This document shows positions 11,840 to 26,843 of a stretch of 48,327 nucleotides of DNA, in pieces (the first letter of the stretch is position 1; the number at the start of each line of letters is the position of its first letter). This DNA comes from Myxococcales bacterium (lineage in GTDB: Bacteria; Myxococcota_A; Polyangia; Polyangiales; Polyangiaceae): the NCBI GenBank assembly GCA_013297655.1, contig JAAFHV010000004.1, positions 1 through 48,327 on the forward strand, read 5' to 3'. The notes beneath the pieces were generated by a model. That model had not been told where the DNA came from and made no database searches. It worked only from the letters and a program-made list of their open reading frames with translations. The translations under genes were made by a program, and so were the position numbers.

Positions 11840-14077
11840 ATGCCGTGCGATGCTCCTGGCGTGCCTTTTCGTGCTCGTGTCGCCCTCGTCGACGTCGCCG
11901 GCTCCGCCGAGCTCCTGGCGGCGACGTTGCGCTCCCTCGGCGCGGACGTCACGTGCGACGAGCTCTCGCGGCTGACGGCCCCCCTCGACGTCCTCGTCGT
12001 CGGCGGAAGCACCAGCGAGCGCGTCGATGCGCACGCCGCGGCGCCTTCGCTCGGCGGCCCCCTGGTCGTCGAGACTGCCCACGACGAAGCGAGCGCCGAG
12101 GCGGCGTTCGCGCGCGGCGCCGACGACGTCATCGCGACCGTGAGCGAAGGCCGAATCGCCGCGATCTTGCGACATGCCGCCCGCCTCCGGAGCGCGTCGA
12201 TCTCGCCCGCGAACGCGAACGCGAACGCGAACGCGTTAGAGGGACGAGCCGAGACCTTGCTCGCCAACGTGTCCGACCTCGTCGCGAACGTGAGCGCGTC
12301 GAACGTGGTCACGTACATGAACCGCGAGGGGGAGACCGGCGCCGGCGGGGTCGGCTGCGTCGTGCTCGATCTCTTCCCGCACGACTACCGCGCGCTCGTG
12401 CAGACGACCCTCGCGGCGGCGCGTTCGGGCGGCAATATCCGCACGTTCGACGTCAGGCTCGTGGGTCGCACCTTTCACGTGCGCGCGGTTCCCCTCGGAG
12501 GAGGCGAGCTCACCCTCATCGCGAGCGACGAGACGGAGGTCTCCGACGTGCTCGAGCGCCTCGGCGACAGCGAGGCGCGCGCGGGCGCGATCGTGGCGGC
12601 GATGCCGGACCTCGTCTTCCGTATGACGGAGGACTCTATTTTTCTCGAGGTTCATGCCCCCGAGAACACCTTCCTGCTGGTGCCGGCGCACGAGATCCCT
12701 GGGCAGCCGGTGGGCGCGCTCCTCCCGCGCGAGGTGGCCGACCTGGTCGTGCCGGCGGTCGCGCGCGCGGTGCGACAGCGCACGACCGAGCTCGTCACGT
12801 ACGAGCTCGACATCCAAGGCGCGCGCCTCTCGTACGAAGCGCGCATCGTGCCCGTCGGACGCGACCAAGTGCTCGCGATCGTGCGGAACATGACCGAGTA
12901 CAACGAGCGGCGGGAGCGCCTCGCGCTCGCCGATCGCCTCGCCTCCCTCGGCACGATGGCCGCCGGCGTCGCGCACGAGATCAACGGGCCGCTCACCTTC
13001 GTGATGCTCGGTCTGGAGTGGCTGGAGCAGCGGGTCGACAAGCTCGACGTGCCCGGCGCCGAGCCCACCGCGAGCGCGCGGGAGCGGCTCCGCGCCATCC
13101 TCGACGGCGTCGTACGGATTCAGCGAATCGTCCGTGATCTCAAGGGATTTACGCGCAAGGACGACCCCGAGGGCGCGGCCGACGTGGCCTCGGCGCTCGA
13201 CGGCGCGCTTCGCCTCGTCTCGGTCGAGCTCCGCTACCGGGGCCGCGTCGAGCGACGCTACGATCCGGTGCCGCTCGTCAAAGGGAGCGCAGTCCGCCTC
13301 GGCCAAGTGTTCTCCAACTTGATCGTGAACGCGGCGCATTCCCTCTCGGAGGACCCGACCGCCGAGAGCGTCGTCACTCTCCGCACGTTCGTCGCCGGGG
13401 ACGGGAGGGTCGCGATCGAGGTGGCGGACACGGGCCGCGGCATTCCCCAGGAGCACCTCCTCCATCTCTTCGAGCCGTTCTTCACGACCAAGCCCGTCGG
13501 CCAAGGCACCGGGCTCGGGCTGTGGGTTTGTCACGAGATCGTGAAGGAGCTCGGAGGAGAGCTCGTGGTCGAGAGCGAGGTGGGCAAAGGGAGCACGTTC
13601 CGCGTTCTCCTCCCTCCCGCGAGCGCGGCCGACATCGTGGCCAGCTCCGGAGCGCCGATCGTCGCGCCGCCGCCGCCGTTGCCGCCGCGAGCGCGCATCC
13701 TCGTGATCGACGACGAGCCGAACCTCGCGAAGACGCTCGCGATCCTCCTCGACGAGCACGTCGTCGAGATCGCGATCGGCGGCGCGGCGGGGCTCGCGCG
13801 CCTCGAGCGCGACACCGAGATCGACCTCGTCTTGTGCGATCTCATGATGCCGCAGATCACGGGGATGGACGTCTACGCGGAGGTGTGCGCGCGCTGGCCC
13901 GCGCTCGCGAGCCGCTTCGCGTTCATGACCGGCGGCGCCTTCACGCCTCGCGCGCGCGAGTTCATCGAGACGTGCGGTCGACCGCACCTCGAGAAGCCGT
14001 TTCGCGCCGAGGACGTGCGCGCCCTGCTGCGCGACGAGGCCCTCCGCTACGCCGAGGAGCGCGCCGGAAAGAGGTAG
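11840..14077 (+). CDS. Hybrid sensor histidine kinase with N-terminal pseudo-receiver
   Basis: A 745-residue cytoplasmic hybrid kinase with no membrane span. Residues 11-115 look like a receiver fold (RARVALVDVAG, DVLVVGGSTSE) but lack the phospho-acceptor aspartate after strand 3, so it is probably a degenerate receiver. Two PAS-like regions follow (about 135-235 and 245-350). HisKA has MAAGVAHEINGPLTFVM with H379. The HATPase has the N-box NLIVNAAH, DTGRGIP and GTGLGLW. A C-terminal receiver (about 618-735) has DD, the acceptor D667 in LVLCDLMMP, MTGG and K719. An ATG and a nearby GTG (11861) are both possible starts. A hexanucleotide repeat codes for an Ala-Asn linker near 125. Confidence 0.88.
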   Translation: MPCDAPGVPFRARVALVDVAGSAELLAATLRSLGADVTCDELSRLTAPLDVLVVGGSTSERVDAHAAAPSLGGPLVVETAHDEASAEAAFARGADDVIATVSEGRIAAILRHAARLRSASISPANANANANALEGRAETLLANVSDLVANVSASNVVTYMNREGETGAGGVGCVVLDLFPHDYRALVQTTLAAARSGGNIRTFDVRLVGRTFHVRAVPLGGGELTLIASDETEVSDVLERLGDSEARAGAIVAAMPDLVFRMTEDSIFLEVHAPENTFLLVPAHEIPGQPVGALLPREVADLVVPAVARAVRQRTTELVTYELDIQGARLSYEARIVPVGRDQVLAIVRNMTEYNERRERLALADRLASLGTMAAGVAHEINGPLTFVMLGLEWLEQRVDKLDVPGAEPTASARERLRAILDGVVRIQRIVRDLKGFTRKDDPEGAADVASALDGALRLVSVELRYRGRVERRYDPVPLVKGSAVRLGQVFSNLIVNAAHSLSEDPTAESVVTLRTFVAGDGRVAIEVADTGRGIPQEHLLHLFEPFFTTKPVGQGTGLGLWVCHEIVKELGGELVVESEVGKGSTFRVLLPPASAADIVASSGAPIVAPPPPLPPRARILVIDDEPNLAKTLAILLDEHVVEIAIGGAAGLARLERDTEIDLVLCDLMMPQITGMDVYAEVCARWPALASRFAFMTGGAFTPRAREFIETCGRPHLEKPFRAEDVRALLRDEALRYAEERAGKR
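12209..12235 (+). repeat. Hexanucleotide microsatellite (GCGAAC)4.5
   Basis: Twenty-seven bases of perfect GCGAAC repeat inside the hybrid kinase gene, coding for alternating Ala-Asn between the pseudo-receiver and first PAS region. Changes in copy number would stay in frame and alter linker length only. Confidence 0.85.
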
Positions 14078-14162
14078 TCTCGTGCGGCCATCTGCCACGA
14101 GCGGGGTGACAGCACAGGCGTTGATTCGCCTACGATCGTGCGGAACGTGCAATGATCGCGGG

Positions 14163-14942
14163 GTGACAGGAGCGCCGTTTACGTTCGGTCCTCGCGCCAT
14201 CCTCGCCGGGGCCGCCCTCGCGGCGTGCGCGCTCGCTCCACCTTCGGCGCACGCCGAAGACGCGACAAGCACGAGCACGAGCACGAGCCCCTACCACTTC
14301 AAGGCGACGCTCGATCTCCCGCTCGTGCTCGTGAGCGCCGCCGGCGCGCTGACGGCGTTCGTCCCGCGCGAGCCAGCCCCGTGCATGCCCGACTGCACAC
14401 CGCCCGCGCGCATGCTCGGCATCGACGAGCGGGTGCTCGGCAACTACTCCACCGGCGCGCACTCGGCGGCGAACGTGATGGTCTTTTCGCTGCTGCTCGC
14501 GCCGCACGCCGTGAACCTCGTCGCGACCGGCGGCAAAGACGGCGCGTGGTTCGAGGACCTCGTCATCACGGGGGAGAGCGTGCTCCTCGCGCAGGCCCTC
14601 ACCCAGGTCGTCAAGTCGGCGACCGATCGGTACGCCCCCATCGTCTACGACCCTGGCGTCCCGCTCGAAGAGCGCACCAGCGCCGACGCGCTCGGCAGCT
14701 TCTGGTCGGGCCACACCGCCACCGCGTTCTCGGCCGCGACGTCGTTCGCGGTCTCTTATTGGCTGCGCCACCCGCGTGATCCGTGGCGCTTCGTGGTGAC
14801 GGCGGGGATGGAGTCGGCCGCGCTCTGCGTCGGCCTCCTCAAGATACGTGCAGGATACCACTATCCGACGGACATCGCGGCGGGCGCGGCGGCCGGCATC
14901 GGCGTGGGCCTCCTCGTGCCGATGCTCCACACCACGTTCTGA
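14163..14942 (+). CDS. PAP2-family phosphatase-like protein, altered active site
   Basis: About 259 residues from a GTG that gives a clean signal peptide ending PPSAHA. The body has membrane helices and the PAP2 motifs: SFWSGHTATAF (SGH at 182-184) and IRAGYHYPTDIAAG (R229, H233, D237). The first motif, normally K-x6-RP, reads KSATDRYAP, so the arginine next to proline is alanine (158), although the lysine (151) is kept. PAP2 enzymes remove phosphate from lipids such as phosphatidate or undecaprenyl diphosphate; here activity may be changed. The start is uncertain: an in-frame GTG at 14082 also exists. The gene follows the hybrid kinase by 85 bp. Confidence 0.8.
   Translation: MTGAPFTFGPRAILAGAALAACALAPPSAHAEDATSTSTSTSPYHFKATLDLPLVLVSAAGALTAFVPREPAPCMPDCTPPARMLGIDERVLGNYSTGAHSAANVMVFSLLLAPHAVNLVATGGKDGAWFEDLVITGESVLLAQALTQVVKSATDRYAPIVYDPGVPLEERTSADALGSFWSGHTATAFSAATSFAVSYWLRHPRDPWRFVVTAGMESAALCVGLLKIRAGYHYPTDIAAGAAAGIGVGLLVPMLHTTF
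14268..14288 (+). repeat. Hexanucleotide repeat (AGCACG)3.5
   Basis: A short perfect AGCACG repeat just after the predicted signal-peptide cleavage site of the PAP2-like protein, coding for a Thr-Ser run. It is in frame. Confidence 0.7.
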
Positions 14943-14973: not shown

Positions 14974-15009
14974 CGTGCCAAAGTGGGCCGTGCCAAGGTG
15001 TGACGTGCC
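14974..15009 (+). promoter_or_regulatory. Three 15-bp-phased CGTGCC repeats, candidate activator sites
   Basis: CGTGCC occurs at 14974, 14989 and 15004, exactly 15 bp apart. The first two extend to CGTGCCAA-GTG. They lie about 70-105 bp upstream of the start predicted from the sigma-54 promoter at 15052, the usual location for enhancer-binding-protein sites. The function is inferred. Confidence 0.4.
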
Positions 15010-15051
15010 GCGAAATAGCGTAAATTGCCGAGGAACGCGCGAATCGGCGCG

Positions 15052-15067
15052 TGGCACGGCACCTGCT
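15052..15067 (+). promoter_or_regulatory. Sigma-54 (RpoN) promoter, near consensus
   Basis: The sequence TGGCACGGCACCTGCT matches TGGCACG-N4-TTGCW at all but one defined position, with the invariant GG and GC separated by exactly 10 bp. Transcription would start near 15077, leaving a short leader that carries AAGGAG (15080-15085) 9 nt before the ATG at 15095. Confidence 0.65.
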
Positions 15068-15094
15068 TTAAGGGTGAGCAAGGAGATTCGACAC

Positions 15095-17626
15095 ATGACC
15101 GCCAAGACCACCTTCGTCCTTCTCGCCGCGTCCGGCCTGGCTGCTTTCGCCATGGGCTGCAGCGGTTCGACCACCGAGCCGGCCCCCCTTGGCCAAGACG
15201 AAGCCATGCTCCGACGCATGAAGTCGTGTGGCGAGCTCCTCACGGAGCTCAAGAGCGACGCCGCCTACAAGGTGAACCACGCGACCGATCGTCAGATCGA
15301 GATGACGCGTCGGTTCTACTCTCAAGGCGGCTACGGCGGCTTCGGCGGCGGTCTCGGGATGCCGGGCGCCGCATCGGACAGCCGCGCCGAGTCGAGCGGC
15401 GCTCCGCAGGCCGGCGCTCCCAGCGCACCCAACTCGCCCACGAGCCCGAGCCCGAGCGCCCCGAAGGCGAGCGATCACTCCGAGACCACCTCGCAGGTCG
15501 CGGGGGTCGACGAGGCCGACTTCGTGAAGGCCGACAACGAGCGCCTCTACGTGCTCCACGGCACGCAGCTCAAGGTGCTCCGCGCCTGGCCGAAAGAGAG
15601 CCTCGCCGAGCTCGGTCAAGCCACCGTCGAGGGCACTCCCTCGGAGATGTTCCTCGATGGCCAGACCCTCGTCGTCTACTCGCAGGTGAACGGCGCGAGC
15701 TTGTTTACCGCGACCGGCACGCCGATGCGTGAAGAATACAACGACTACGGCTACGGCGGTGGCGGCTTCGGCGGCGGCGTCAGCGTAGGCCGCGCGGAGT
15801 CGGTGCCCACCATGCCCGGCGGCGGCGTCCCGCAGTCGTCCGCGCCCTACCACCCGCTCACGAAGATCACCGTCTTCCAGGTCGCGAACGGCGTGCCGCA
15901 GGCCACCCGCGAGCTCTACTTCGAGGGCCACTACGAAGACTCGCGCCGCGTCGGTCCCGAGGTCCGCACCGTGCTGACCGGCGCCGCCCACGGCCCGAAG
16001 CTCTCTTCCAACTTGGAGCTTGCCCCCGGCGAGCAGTACCCACAAACCGCCGACGAGATCATCGCGAAGTACGAGCTCCTCCGCGCGAAGAACCTGGCCG
16101 CCGTCGCGGCGAGCCAGCTCGACGACTGGATGCCGGTCTCGTTCGAGAAGGTCGGCTCGCAAGTCACCGTCGCGCGCCCCACGTGCTCCGACTACTACCT
16201 CCCCACCACCGGCTCGACGAGCTACGGCCTCACCCAGGTGGAGTCGATCAACCTCACTCAGCCGAACGCGCCCGTGAAGAGCGCGGCGATCACCGGCCAC
16301 ACCAGCGTCGTCTACGGCAACGGCGGCTCGCTCGTCCTCGCGCAGCAGGGCTACGTCGACCTCCCCTGGAGTGACATCTACGCGTCTTGGCAGTCGCAGC
16401 AGACGAGCAACGGCGGCAGCGGTTGGGGCTGGGGCTCCTCCGGCTCGATGCCCGGCACCGAGGCGAGCCCTCCGGACACCGCGACCCCGGCGCCTTCGCC
16501 CACGCCCCTGCCCGCTCCTGGCCGTGTAGGAACCCGCACCTCGCCCGCGGTCACCCCGGTGACGCCGCCGGCGCTCCCGGCGCGCTTCGTGACGAGCCGC
16601 ACCCACGTCCACAAGCTCGTCTTCAACTCGCCGAGCGAGCCCGGCTTCCCGATCTACGTGGGCTCCGGCACCGTCGGCGGCTCGGTCGACGACCAGTACT
16701 CGATCGACGAATACCAGGGGAACATCCGCATCGCGTCGACGGAGAGCTTCGTTTACCTCCACCAAGCGCAGAACGAGACCGAGCGCCTCGCGCAGCCGCA
16801 GAGCGAGAACCACGTCCGTGTGCTCGGCCCGGCGACCCCCGGCCTCCGCCTCCCGCTCCGCGGCGACACCGGCAAGCTCGCGCCGGACGAGCGCATCTAC
16901 TCGGCGCGCTTCATGGGCGGCAAAGGGTACCTCGTCACGTTCCGCCAGGTGGACCCGCTCTTCTCCCTCGACCTCTCGAACCCCGACGCTCCGCGCGTGA
17001 CCGGCGAGCTGAAGATCCCAGGGTTTAGCGAGTTCATGGTCCCGATGGACGACAACCACCTCCTCACGATCGGTCGCGACGCGACGGACCAGGGGCGCGT
17101 CCAGGGCCTCGCCCTCCAAATCTTCGACGTGACCGATCCGGCCCGCCCGCGCCTCGCTCACAAGCACTCGTACTCGAACAGCGAGTACGGCCACTCCGAC
17201 GCCCTCCACGACCCCAAGGCGTTCACGTACTTCAAGGAGCGCGGCCTCCTCGCCTTCCCGTACTACGCGTACAACAACTCGCCGAACGGCATGCGCAGCT
17301 CGCTCGAGGTGTTCACGGTGAACGCGCAGACCGGCTTCACCAAGGCCGGCAGCGTGGACCACACCTCGTTCTTCGCGAGCCAGCCGCAAGGTTACTCGTG
17401 CGGTTATTACCAGCCCAGCGTGCGACGGGGCGTGTTCCTCGAGGACGTCATCTACTCGATTAGCTACGGCGGAGTCATCGCGCAGAAGGTCGGTCAGCTC
17501 GGCGTCCCCGGCTCGAAGCTCCCGCTCTCCGCGCCGGTCGCCCCGCCCGGATACCCGTCCTGCGGCGACTCTCCCGGCGTGCGTGAGCCCGCCCCGACCC
17601 CAGTGCCCGTCCCCGGCGGCGGCTGA
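15095..17626 (+). CDS. Secreted beta-propeller-domain lipoprotein
   Basis: An 843-residue protein. The signal peptide ends in a lipobox MGC (Cys22), so it is predicted to be anchored in the envelope. After a Gly/Ser/Pro-rich linker comes the signature TTSQVAGVDEADFVKADNERLYVL, which marks the beta-propeller family PF09826 (usual form: QVxGVDEADxVKTDGxYIY). The propeller continues with blades such as GKGYLVTFRQVDPLFSLDLS and NPDAPRVTGELKIPGFSEF. Two low-complexity insertions interrupt it: a Gly/Tyr-rich loop near 220 and a Ser/Gly/Pro-rich loop near 430-490. The ATG has AAGGAG at 9 nt. It is monocistronic, with a sigma-54 promoter and a strong terminator. Its function is unknown, possibly surface binding. 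Confidence 0.88.
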   Translation: MTAKTTFVLLAASGLAAFAMGCSGSTTEPAPLGQDEAMLRRMKSCGELLTELKSDAAYKVNHATDRQIEMTRRFYSQGGYGGFGGGLGMPGAASDSRAESSGAPQAGAPSAPNSPTSPSPSAPKASDHSETTSQVAGVDEADFVKADNERLYVLHGTQLKVLRAWPKESLAELGQATVEGTPSEMFLDGQTLVVYSQVNGASLFTATGTPMREEYNDYGYGGGGFGGGVSVGRAESVPTMPGGGVPQSSAPYHPLTKITVFQVANGVPQATRELYFEGHYEDSRRVGPEVRTVLTGAAHGPKLSSNLELAPGEQYPQTADEIIAKYELLRAKNLAAVAASQLDDWMPVSFEKVGSQVTVARPTCSDYYLPTTGSTSYGLTQVESINLTQPNAPVKSAAITGHTSVVYGNGGSLVLAQQGYVDLPWSDIYASWQSQQTSNGGSGWGWGSSGSMPGTEASPPDTATPAPSPTPLPAPGRVGTRTSPAVTPVTPPALPARFVTSRTHVHKLVFNSPSEPGFPIYVGSGTVGGSVDDQYSIDEYQGNIRIASTESFVYLHQAQNETERLAQPQSENHVRVLGPATPGLRLPLRGDTGKLAPDERIYSARFMGGKGYLVTFRQVDPLFSLDLSNPDAPRVTGELKIPGFSEFMVPMDDNHLLTIGRDATDQGRVQGLALQIFDVTDPARPRLAHKHSYSNSEYGHSDALHDPKAFTYFKERGLLAFPYYAYNNSPNGMRSSLEVFTVNAQTGFTKAGSVDHTSFFASQPQGYSCGYYQPSVRRGVFLEDVIYSISYGGVIAQKVGQLGVPGSKLPLSAPVAPPGYPSCGDSPGVREPAPTPVPVPGGG

Positions 17627-24168: not shown

Positions 24169-25476
24169 TCAGGGCGCGATCGGCAAGATCACGGTCGCCT
24201 CCGCGCCGCGACCGCCCTCGCGGGTACGGAGGCTCACCTCACCCCCGTGCGCCTCCGCGATCTGCCGCGCGAGCGCGAGGCCGATCCCGGTGCCGCCCGG
24301 TTTGGTCGTAAAAAAGGGAACGAACAGGCCCGAAGCCTCCGCGACGCCGGGCCCTTCGTCCTCCACGAAGAGGTGAACACGCTCGTCTTCGACGAGCCAA
24401 CGAATGCCCACTTCGGTGCCTGGCGGAGCGGCCTCGACCGCGTTCTTGACGAGGTTGATGAGGAGCGCGTCGAGTTGATCGCCGTCGGCGCGCAGGCTCA
24501 CGGAGGGCCCCTTCGCCACCTTCACGCGCCCGTCGTGGCCGAGCGCCACCACCCGCGCGACCCACTCCTCCACCGTGGTGTCGCGCAGCACCGGCAGCGG
24601 TAGCTTCGCGAGCCGCGCGTACGCCGACATGAAACGCCCGAGCGAGCGCGAACGCCGCGCGACGACCTCGAGCCCCTCCATGACGTCCGCCTCCCAGTCT
24701 TCCGGGCGCGGGCTCTTCGCGAGCACCGTCGACACGTTCTCCACGATGGACTCGATCGGCGCGAGCGAGTTGTTGATCTCGTGCCCCATCACCGAAATGA
24801 TGCGTTTCCAAGCCTCTTGCTCGCGCTCACGGAGGGCGACCGTCATGTCCGAGAGCACGAGGAGCGTGTGCTCTACACCCGCGAGGCGAAACGTCCCTCG
24901 GCGGAGCTCGAACGGGCGCTCCCCGAGGGCGGCGAGGTCCGAGACCACCCGCGGCGCCTCACCCGCGAGGAGCGCGTCGAGCCCGAGCTCGAGCGCCGAC
25001 CTCCCGACGAGGCGGCTCGACGAGAGCCCGAGCGCGCGCGACGCTGCCTCGTTCGCGAGCCGCACGCGTCCGTCGGCCTCGAACGAGAGCACCACGACGT
25101 CGATCTCGGCCATCACCTTCCGCAAGAGCGACCACGCCTCCATCTCGCCGAGACGATGGTCACGGAGCGTGTCGCCGAGGGCGTTCAAGTCGACGAGCAC
25201 GTCGTCCACCGCGACGTCCTCGCGGGTCTCCCGCGCGCGGATCGAGAAGTCGCCCTCGCGGTAAGCCGCGAGCACCGCCGAGATCGTACGCAGCCTACGA
25301 ATTCGCACCGATCGCGCGTAAATGGCCAATCCAAGAGTGACCACGATCGCCACGCCGAGGTGGGCCTTCGGGGCCCCCGCAACGAAGCCCACCACCAGCG
25401 CCGGCAACCCGATCACGAAGAGGCGCGCGAGGTCGACGAGCGCCTTCGCGCGGAGTGGCTCGTTCGAGTCGCTCAC
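24169..25476 (-). CDS. NtrY/NtrB-like sensor histidine kinase of the efflux operon
   Basis: A 435-residue kinase. Two closely spaced N-terminal membrane helices (about 16-34 and 38-55) leave little periplasmic sequence. A HAMP-like segment and a PAS domain (about 118-210, ANEAASRALGLS) follow. The H-box is SVMGHEINNSLAPIESIVENV with H232, the NtrY-type form. HATPase motifs are NLVKNAVEA, DEGPGV and TGIGLALARQIAEAHGG. The GTG start overlaps the stop of the response-regulator gene (GTGA at 25473-25476), so the two are translationally coupled and surely partners. It is the last gene of the operon. Confidence 0.9.
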   Translation of the reverse strand: MSDSNEPLRAKALVDLARLFVIGLPALVVGFVAGAPKAHLGVAIVVTLGLAIYARSVRIRRLRTISAVLAAYREGDFSIRARETREDVAVDDVLVDLNALGDTLRDHRLGEMEAWSLLRKVMAEIDVVVLSFEADGRVRLANEAASRALGLSSSRLVGRSALELGLDALLAGEAPRVVSDLAALGERPFELRRGTFRLAGVEHTLLVLSDMTVALREREQEAWKRIISVMGHEINNSLAPIESIVENVSTVLAKSPRPEDWEADVMEGLEVVARRSRSLGRFMSAYARLAKLPLPVLRDTTVEEWVARVVALGHDGRVKVAKGPSVSLRADGDQLDALLINLVKNAVEAAPPGTEVGIRWLVEDERVHLFVEDEGPGVAEASGLFVPFFTTKPGGTGIGLALARQIAEAHGGEVSLRTREGGRGAEATVILPIAP

Positions 25477-26843
25477 TCTTTCTCCGTGATGCCGAGCACC
25501 TGGAGCCTTCGGTAGAGCGCGCTCCGCGAGAGCCCGAGCGCCTCCGCGGCCGCGTTCGCCGACGGCGCGCGTTCCATCGCGCGACGAACGAGGTACGCCT
25601 CCGCGTCCGCCAAGGTCATCCGCTCGAGCGCGACCGCGGCAGACGTACTGCCCGCGCGCCGGAGGTGCAGATCCGCGAGCTCGATCGTGGCGCCCTCCGC
25701 CAGCACCACCGCGCGCTCGACCACGTGCTCGAGCTCGCGCACGTTCCCGGGCCACGCGTGCTCGGCCATCGCGACGCTCGCCTCCGAGGAAAACCGCTCG
25801 ATCGTCTTCCCGTAGCGCGCCGCCTTCTTCGCGAGAAAATGCGCCGCGAGGGCGGGCACGTCCTCCGGGCGCTCGCGAAGTGGAGGCAGCCGCACCTCGA
25901 CCGTGTCGAGGCGAAAGAGGAGATCTTCGCGAAACTCCCCCCGCGCCACGCTCGCCGCCACGTCGACGTTGGTGGCGGAGACCACCCGCACGTCGACCGT
26001 GCGTGTACGCGACGAGCCGACGGGGGTGAGCTCGCCGCTCTGGAGCACACGAAGGAGCTTGGCCTGCTGCCCCGGCGGCATGGTGCCGATCTCGTCGAGG
26101 AAGAGCGTGCCTCCGTCGGCGAGCTCGAAGCACCCGATGCGATCGGACTTCGCGTCGGTGAAGGCCCCTTTCACGTGGCCGAAGAGCTCACTCTCGAACA
26201 CGCCGTCGGCGAGCGCGCCCGCGTTCACCGGCACGAACGGGCGCGACGCGCGCGGCGATGCGGCGTGAATCCAGCGCGCGACCACGTCCTTCCCCGTGCC
26301 GTGCTCGCCGGTCACGAGCACGTTCGCGTCCGACGCGGCGACCCGCGCGACGAGGCGCTTGACCGGCTCCATCGCCTTCGACACCGCGACGAGCTCGGGG
26401 AGCGCGCGATCGTTCTCGCGCGCCGACTGCGCACCGAGACGAGCGGCGCGGAGGCCCACGTCCGCGAGCTGGATCTCACGGCGCAGCGTCGCCATCAACC
26501 TCTCGTTTTTCCAAGGCTTTTCGACGTAGTCACGCGCACCGCGCCGCATCGCCGCGACGGCGCCCTCCACGCTCCCCCAGGCGGTCATCACGATGACGGG
26601 GAGGTCTTTCGAGGTGGCGAGGAGCCGGCCGACGAGGTCGAGCCCTTCGTTTCCCGAGGTGGTGTCGCGCGCGTAGTTCATGTCGACGAGCGCGGCGGCG
26701 AGCTCCTCGTCACGTGCGAGCGCGAGGGCACCCTCGGGTGACTGCGCGGTGACCACGCCGAAACCCTCGGACTTCAAGAGGAGCTTCAGCGCCGTGACCA
26801 CGTCGGCCTGATCGTCGACCACGAGGACGCGAGGAGCGCGCAT
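25473..26843 (-). CDS. Sigma-54-dependent response regulator (NtrC family)
   Basis: A 456-residue enhancer-binding protein. The receiver has DD (10-11), acceptor D54 and K109. The AAA+ domain has Walker A GEHGTGKD (179-186), the sigma-54 contact loop GAFTDA (226-231; the common form is GAFTGA), Walker B GGTLFLDEI and the arginine-rich LRERPEDVPAL. The C-terminal Fis-type helix-turn-helix is NAAAEALGLSRSALYRRLQVLGI. It starts 2 nt after the permease stop and overlaps the kinase gene, so it is made with the exporter it probably controls. The GAFTDA change is known in other members and does not by itself imply loss of function. Confidence 0.93.
   Translation of the reverse strand: MRAPRVLVVDDQADVVTALKLLLKSEGFGVVTAQSPEGALALARDEELAAALVDMNYARDTTSGNEGLDLVGRLLATSKDLPVIVMTAWGSVEGAVAAMRRGARDYVEKPWKNERLMATLRREIQLADVGLRAARLGAQSARENDRALPELVAVSKAMEPVKRLVARVAASDANVLVTGEHGTGKDVVARWIHAASPRASRPFVPVNAGALADGVFESELFGHVKGAFTDAKSDRIGCFELADGGTLFLDEIGTMPPGQQAKLLRVLQSGELTPVGSSRTRTVDVRVVSATNVDVAASVARGEFREDLLFRLDTVEVRLPPLRERPEDVPALAAHFLAKKAARYGKTIERFSSEASVAMAEHAWPGNVRELEHVVERAVVLAEGATIELADLHLRRAGSTSAAVALERMTLADAEAYLVRRAMERAPSANAAAEALGLSRSALYRRLQVLGITEKE

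Follow-up and report, generated by a model that had tools for sequence, protein, structure and literature searches.

A lipoprotein gene and its upstream region

The window, a 48,327-nucleotide stretch of a Polyangiaceae genome (Myxococcales bacterium), carries a gene for an 843-residue lipoprotein with a clear match to the β-propeller family PF09826 (Beta_propel; 379 bits against a cut-off of 22.4), for which sequence matching recovered no resembling solved structure. The lipobox at its N-terminus suggests that it resides in the outer membrane or at the surface. The features relevant to its expression are:

11840-14077, hybrid histidine kinase gene, upstream of the lipoprotein gene
14082-14942, PAP2 phosphatase gene, upstream of the lipoprotein gene
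14974-14980, + strand, putative activator half-site 1, CGTGCCA (a TGTGCCA variant), at about -104
14989-14995, + strand, putative activator half-site 2, CGTGCCA (a TGTGCCA variant), at about -89
15004-15010, + strand, weak, degenerate third copy, CGTGCCG, at about -74; left out of the half-site count at one mismatch
15010-15030, unstranded, AT-rich tract GCGAAATAGCGTAAATTGCCG, spacer separating the promoter from the activator sites; may be bent
15052-15067, + strand, σ54 promoter TGGCACGGCACCTGCT with -24 and -12 elements, from consensus match and ortholog conservation
about 15078, + strand, predicted transcription start, 12 nt past the -12 C at 15066 by the σ54 promoter rule
15080-15085, + strand, ribosome-binding site AAGGAG, 9 nt ahead of the ATG at 15095
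15095-17626, + strand, β-propeller lipoprotein gene, lipobox ...FAMGC
25473-26843, response-regulator enhancer-binding protein (EBP) gene with GAFTDA replacing GAFTGA, adjacent to the gene for a MacB/FtsX-type permease

Given the kinase and phosphatase genes upstream and the opposite orientation of the next genes downstream, the lipoprotein gene seems to form a transcription unit by itself, served by its own promoter. That promoter, TGGCACGGCACCTGCT, departs from the σ54 consensus TGGCACGNNNNTTGCW at a single position, with C in place of the first T of TTGC. It retains the GG (-25/-24) and GC (-13/-12) pairs at the correct spacing and is the sole one-mismatch match across the window. The near-consensus RpoN promoter and well-placed ribosome-binding site described in a first-pass annotation are thereby borne out, with the predicted start at ~15078 in place of 15077. 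The same annotation had described phased CGTGCC repeats upstream of the promoter. Copies at 14974, 14989 and 15004 do lie at intervals of exactly 15 bp, ending only ~70 bp upstream of +1, and no equally spaced triplet (7-30 bp) arose in any of 60 simulated windows with the dinucleotide make-up of the real one. However, 15 bp corresponds to 1.4 helical turns, so that consecutive copies are not helically phased, and the third copy is weak.

The σ54 promoter is conserved across related lineages

We collected the upstream DNA of 19 orthologs of the lipoprotein gene from the same family and order (n=20 with the window gene) and scored it with a σ54 weight matrix built from the published consensus, whose scores (maximum 22) are relative only. 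The σ54 promoter before the lipoprotein gene proved to be conserved across related lineages: all 20 genes have a site 29-99 nt before the start (score 10.6-18.0), the second-best site in each ortholog upstream sequence usually scoring below 5. Sites scoring at least 10 occur at ~0.09 per kb of strand, which amounts to a ~1% chance per 100-nt search. The promoter is also found before the orthologs of Polyangium, Sorangium, Archangium and Myxococcus xanthus. Homologs from archaea and Bacillota almost all score below 7, that is, are without a σ54 site, as are five paralogs of the window's own genome and family (L053, L054, L057, L058 and L059; scores 2.5-6.3). The protein tree shows the same partition, in that the window protein falls in a 24-row clade (100/99) with the promoter in 23 of 24 members, while it occurs in none of the 8 members of a paralog clade.

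TGTGCCA is the conserved upstream element

The first-pass annotation had proposed searching for the CGTGCC triplet upstream of orthologs. Related repeats do accompany their σ54 promoters, but the conserved upstream unit is the heptamer TGTGCCA/TGGCACA and not the 15-bp triplet, which in its exact form is particular to the window's genome. Within the 150 bp above the promoter, the exact heptamer is present in 17 of the 20 upstream regions (0.37 expected) and its core GTGCCA in 19 of 20 (1.24 expected). L033 has no half-site, and the copies in L049 are all imperfect. The CGTGCCA copies of the window are a local variant of this lineage's TGTGCCA half-site; the nearest tree relative of the window protein (L034) also has CGTGCCA at a different spacing.

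Half-sites tend to be paired. In a set of 50 promoters, part of which was selected for one TGTGCCA and none for a pair, 46 pairs lie 7-24 bp apart where shuffling gives ~0.9; most are palindromes (e.g., TGGCACACGTGTGCCA) or direct repeats with a spacing of 9-10 bp. With near-copies removed, half-site positions show a 10.75-bp period (P about 0.0003; orthologs alone P=0.07, other genes alone P=0.0017). The related promoters present paired sites in helical phase at about -70 to -150, as in the upstream activator region of an EBP; those of the window are atypical in their 15-bp spacing and do not lie clearly within the common phase. AT-rich 7-mers concentrate in the interval from -45 to -70 that separates half-sites from promoter, with hardly any between -80 and -125; the AT-rich tract of the window at 15010-15030 occupies the same place as this peak. 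In arrangement, the TGTGCCA promoters match the classical EBP type, bendable spacer included.

In the Myxococcus/Archangium line the σ54 promoter is kept and TGTGCCA is absent. Instead, 7 of 9 orthologs of this type (L098, L101, L105, L124, L125, L127 and L097) have a palindrome, CTCAGA-N2-TCTGAG, matched at 10-12 of 12 positions and located at -83 to -124 upstream of the lipoprotein gene; such matches occur in 1% of random same-locus stretches, although the palindrome was defined on the sequences in which it was counted, making the count descriptive. No promoter of the Polyangiales set matches it at more than 9 of 12 positions. With the promoter retained and TGTGCCA replaced by the palindrome, the activator site has changed on a conserved promoter.

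TGTGCCA precedes σ54 sites of other exported-protein genes

A loose composite of half-site and promoter, searched genome-wide in G000, gave 8 raw matches against 10 for a read-backwards control. Since this showed no excess in one genome, we turned to a stricter pattern, TGTGCCA-N40-70-TGGCNCN5TTGCW, in 41 family genomes, which recovered 18 matches against one for a permuted heptamer of the same composition (CTGTGCA). In a phylum-wide search, matches outside the order were at control level; hence the motif is not general to myxobacteria. The genes behind TGTGCCA and a σ54 site mostly code for lipoproteins or other signal-peptide proteins, as judged by eye from their N-termini, and include two DUF2330 proteins, a serpin and a Cu2_monooxygen protein. 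The two DUF2330 proteins (L230 and L235) come from two family genomes and both have the arrangement, pointing to a TGTGCCA-σ54 link that may be conserved for this family too; the serpin-family protein (L237) is itself a lipoprotein.

Two further loci are of note. At L221 ~1480-1590 (G000 C113:42100), one short intergenic stretch holds two divergent σ54-like sites, each with a GTGCCA half-site. Near a contig end, L282:100-245 (G000 contig C266) packs ~8 TGTGCCA half-sites into 145 bp, with no σ54 site found near the cluster.

Start codons around 56 σ54 sites (G000 and family loci L171-L244) are most frequent 27-31 nt beyond the T of TGGC, in a sharp peak (24 ATGs in this bin against ~3 in others), which predicts 5′ leaders of ~1-5 nt, that is, near-leaderless genes. 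The window gene is not of this kind, its ATG lying 43 nt past the T of TGGC behind a ribosome-binding site.

A putative trans-acting enhancer-binding protein

The genome (9.9 Mb in 546 contigs) has one RpoN gene and ~70 full-length σ54 activator domains (EBPs). The EBP gene in the window belongs to a separate gene group 8 kb from the lipoprotein gene, and EBPs are not enriched near the lipoprotein gene or its orthologs (5 in 1.37 Mb, the chance expectation). With no linked EBP, the one serving the lipoprotein promoter most likely acts in trans. A scan of 67 EBP loci and one non-EBP region for an autoregulated EBP with TGTGCCA yielded no convincing case, only weak single half-sites at or below chance level (e.g., C446, L245).

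What the half-sites bind can be weighed against these data. The resemblance of TGTGCCA to the -24 element itself, whose sequence TGGCAC(G/A) is nearly TGGCACA (the window's GCCGTGCCA and TGGCACGGC are exact reverse complements), raises the idea that these words are spare -24-like elements, which would enrich σ54 locally by binding it, alone or as holoenzyme, rather than serve an EBP. However, no -12 element follows the TGTGCCA copies, an unrelated palindrome takes their place in Myxococcus/Archangium, and the copies face either way, form palindromes or pairs 9-10 bp apart, and hold a fixed helical phase at -70 to -150, as fits dimeric activators, all of which leaves this idea quite improbable. 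Somewhat less remote, yet still unlikely, is a repressor or other non-EBP regulator that occupies the half-sites and modulates the σ54 promoter, with the EBP binding elsewhere or acting from solution. The want of a linked EBP and the half-site cluster on C266 that stands apart from any σ54 site would suit such a regulator; it is at odds with half-sites that lie upstream at -70 to -150, are helically phased and associate strongly with σ54 sites genome-wide. As for chance matches of promoter and repeats in GC-rich DNA, the window by itself offers some room, with 8 consensus matches at up to two mismatches where 4.6 are expected. The ortholog comparison refutes such an origin, the promoter being present in all 19 other orthologs and absent from the paralogs and nearly all archaeal homologs, and reduces its probability to next to nothing.

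From what we computed, namely a conserved promoter, a helically phased half-site motif and the return of that motif ahead of other exported-protein genes, we conclude that the stretch is very probably the σ54 (RpoN) promoter of the lipoprotein gene together with an upstream activator region bound by a putative trans-acting EBP. The core of the first-pass reading, a σ54 promoter with activator sites before a β-propeller lipoprotein gene, thus gains support from the orthologs, the RpoN gene and the many EBPs; this sequence-based analysis found no link between the lipoprotein promoter and development, a theme which that reading had raised. RNA polymerase-σ54 would sit in a closed complex at 15052-15067, and the putative EBP, as a dimer or oligomer supplied in trans, would occupy the two CGTGCCA copies, near -104 and -89. 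The DNA may bend at the AT-rich tract and so let the activator reach the polymerase, whereupon ATP hydrolysis would open the promoter, presumably in answer to an inducing signal.

By extension, TGTGCCA would generally be bound by a trans-acting EBP, as its placement suggests. We further propose, as a model that could go either way, that a single, undescribed EBP recognises TGTGCCA in Polyangiaceae and their relatives and governs a broad σ54 regulon of lipoproteins and other exported proteins, many of them made from near-leaderless transcripts, and that the lipoprotein's promoter was kept through Myxococcota as its activator site was swapped for the palindrome in the Myxococcus/Archangium line. 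Myxobacteria possess dozens of EBPs, mostly without known sites or targets; having both a defined half-site and a set of promoters that carry it opens a route to the activator and its signal. The TGTGCCA promoters suggest a single circuit governing surface and exported proteins in a group that has received little study. The lipoprotein promoter illustrates cleanly how an activator site can turn over while the promoter itself is conserved, and the set also supplies predicted near-leaderless σ54 genes.

Comparison with known σ54 systems

With NtrC-class σ54 promoters, the TGTGCCA promoters share the -24/-12 elements, the phased, paired half-sites at about -70 to -150 and the AT-rich spacer; they differ in the half-site itself, which we did not find described as a σ54 activator site in the literature searched, whose coverage mostly excludes subscription journals. 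The nearest described myxobacterial systems are the Nla28 and NmpR regulons of Myxococcus xanthus, and their sites differ. Nla28 likewise governs a myxobacterial σ54 regulon with repeated half-sites and the promoter consensus TGGCACG-N4-TTGC(T/A); unlike the TGTGCCA set, it uses the half-site CT(C/G)CG(C/G)AG, acts in the starvation response and belongs to a different suborder (PMC9765219). The NmpR sites resemble the repeats of the window in recurring upstream of σ54 promoters, preferably 14-15 bp apart, but have the form GCGCA-N5-TGCGC and control oxygen-utilisation genes (PMC11841059). Membership of either regulon was rejected, as the window region has CGTGCCA repeats and neither of these sites. 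At a broader level, σ54 has been described as a controller of the bacterial exterior, a cross-phylum theme based on gene associations (Francke et al., 2011; PMC3162934); the TGTGCCA motif is not described there, whereas the predominance of lipoproteins and other exported proteins among the predicted targets accords with that theme. The promoter type is already known, and the TGTGCCA set is a predicted new regulon.
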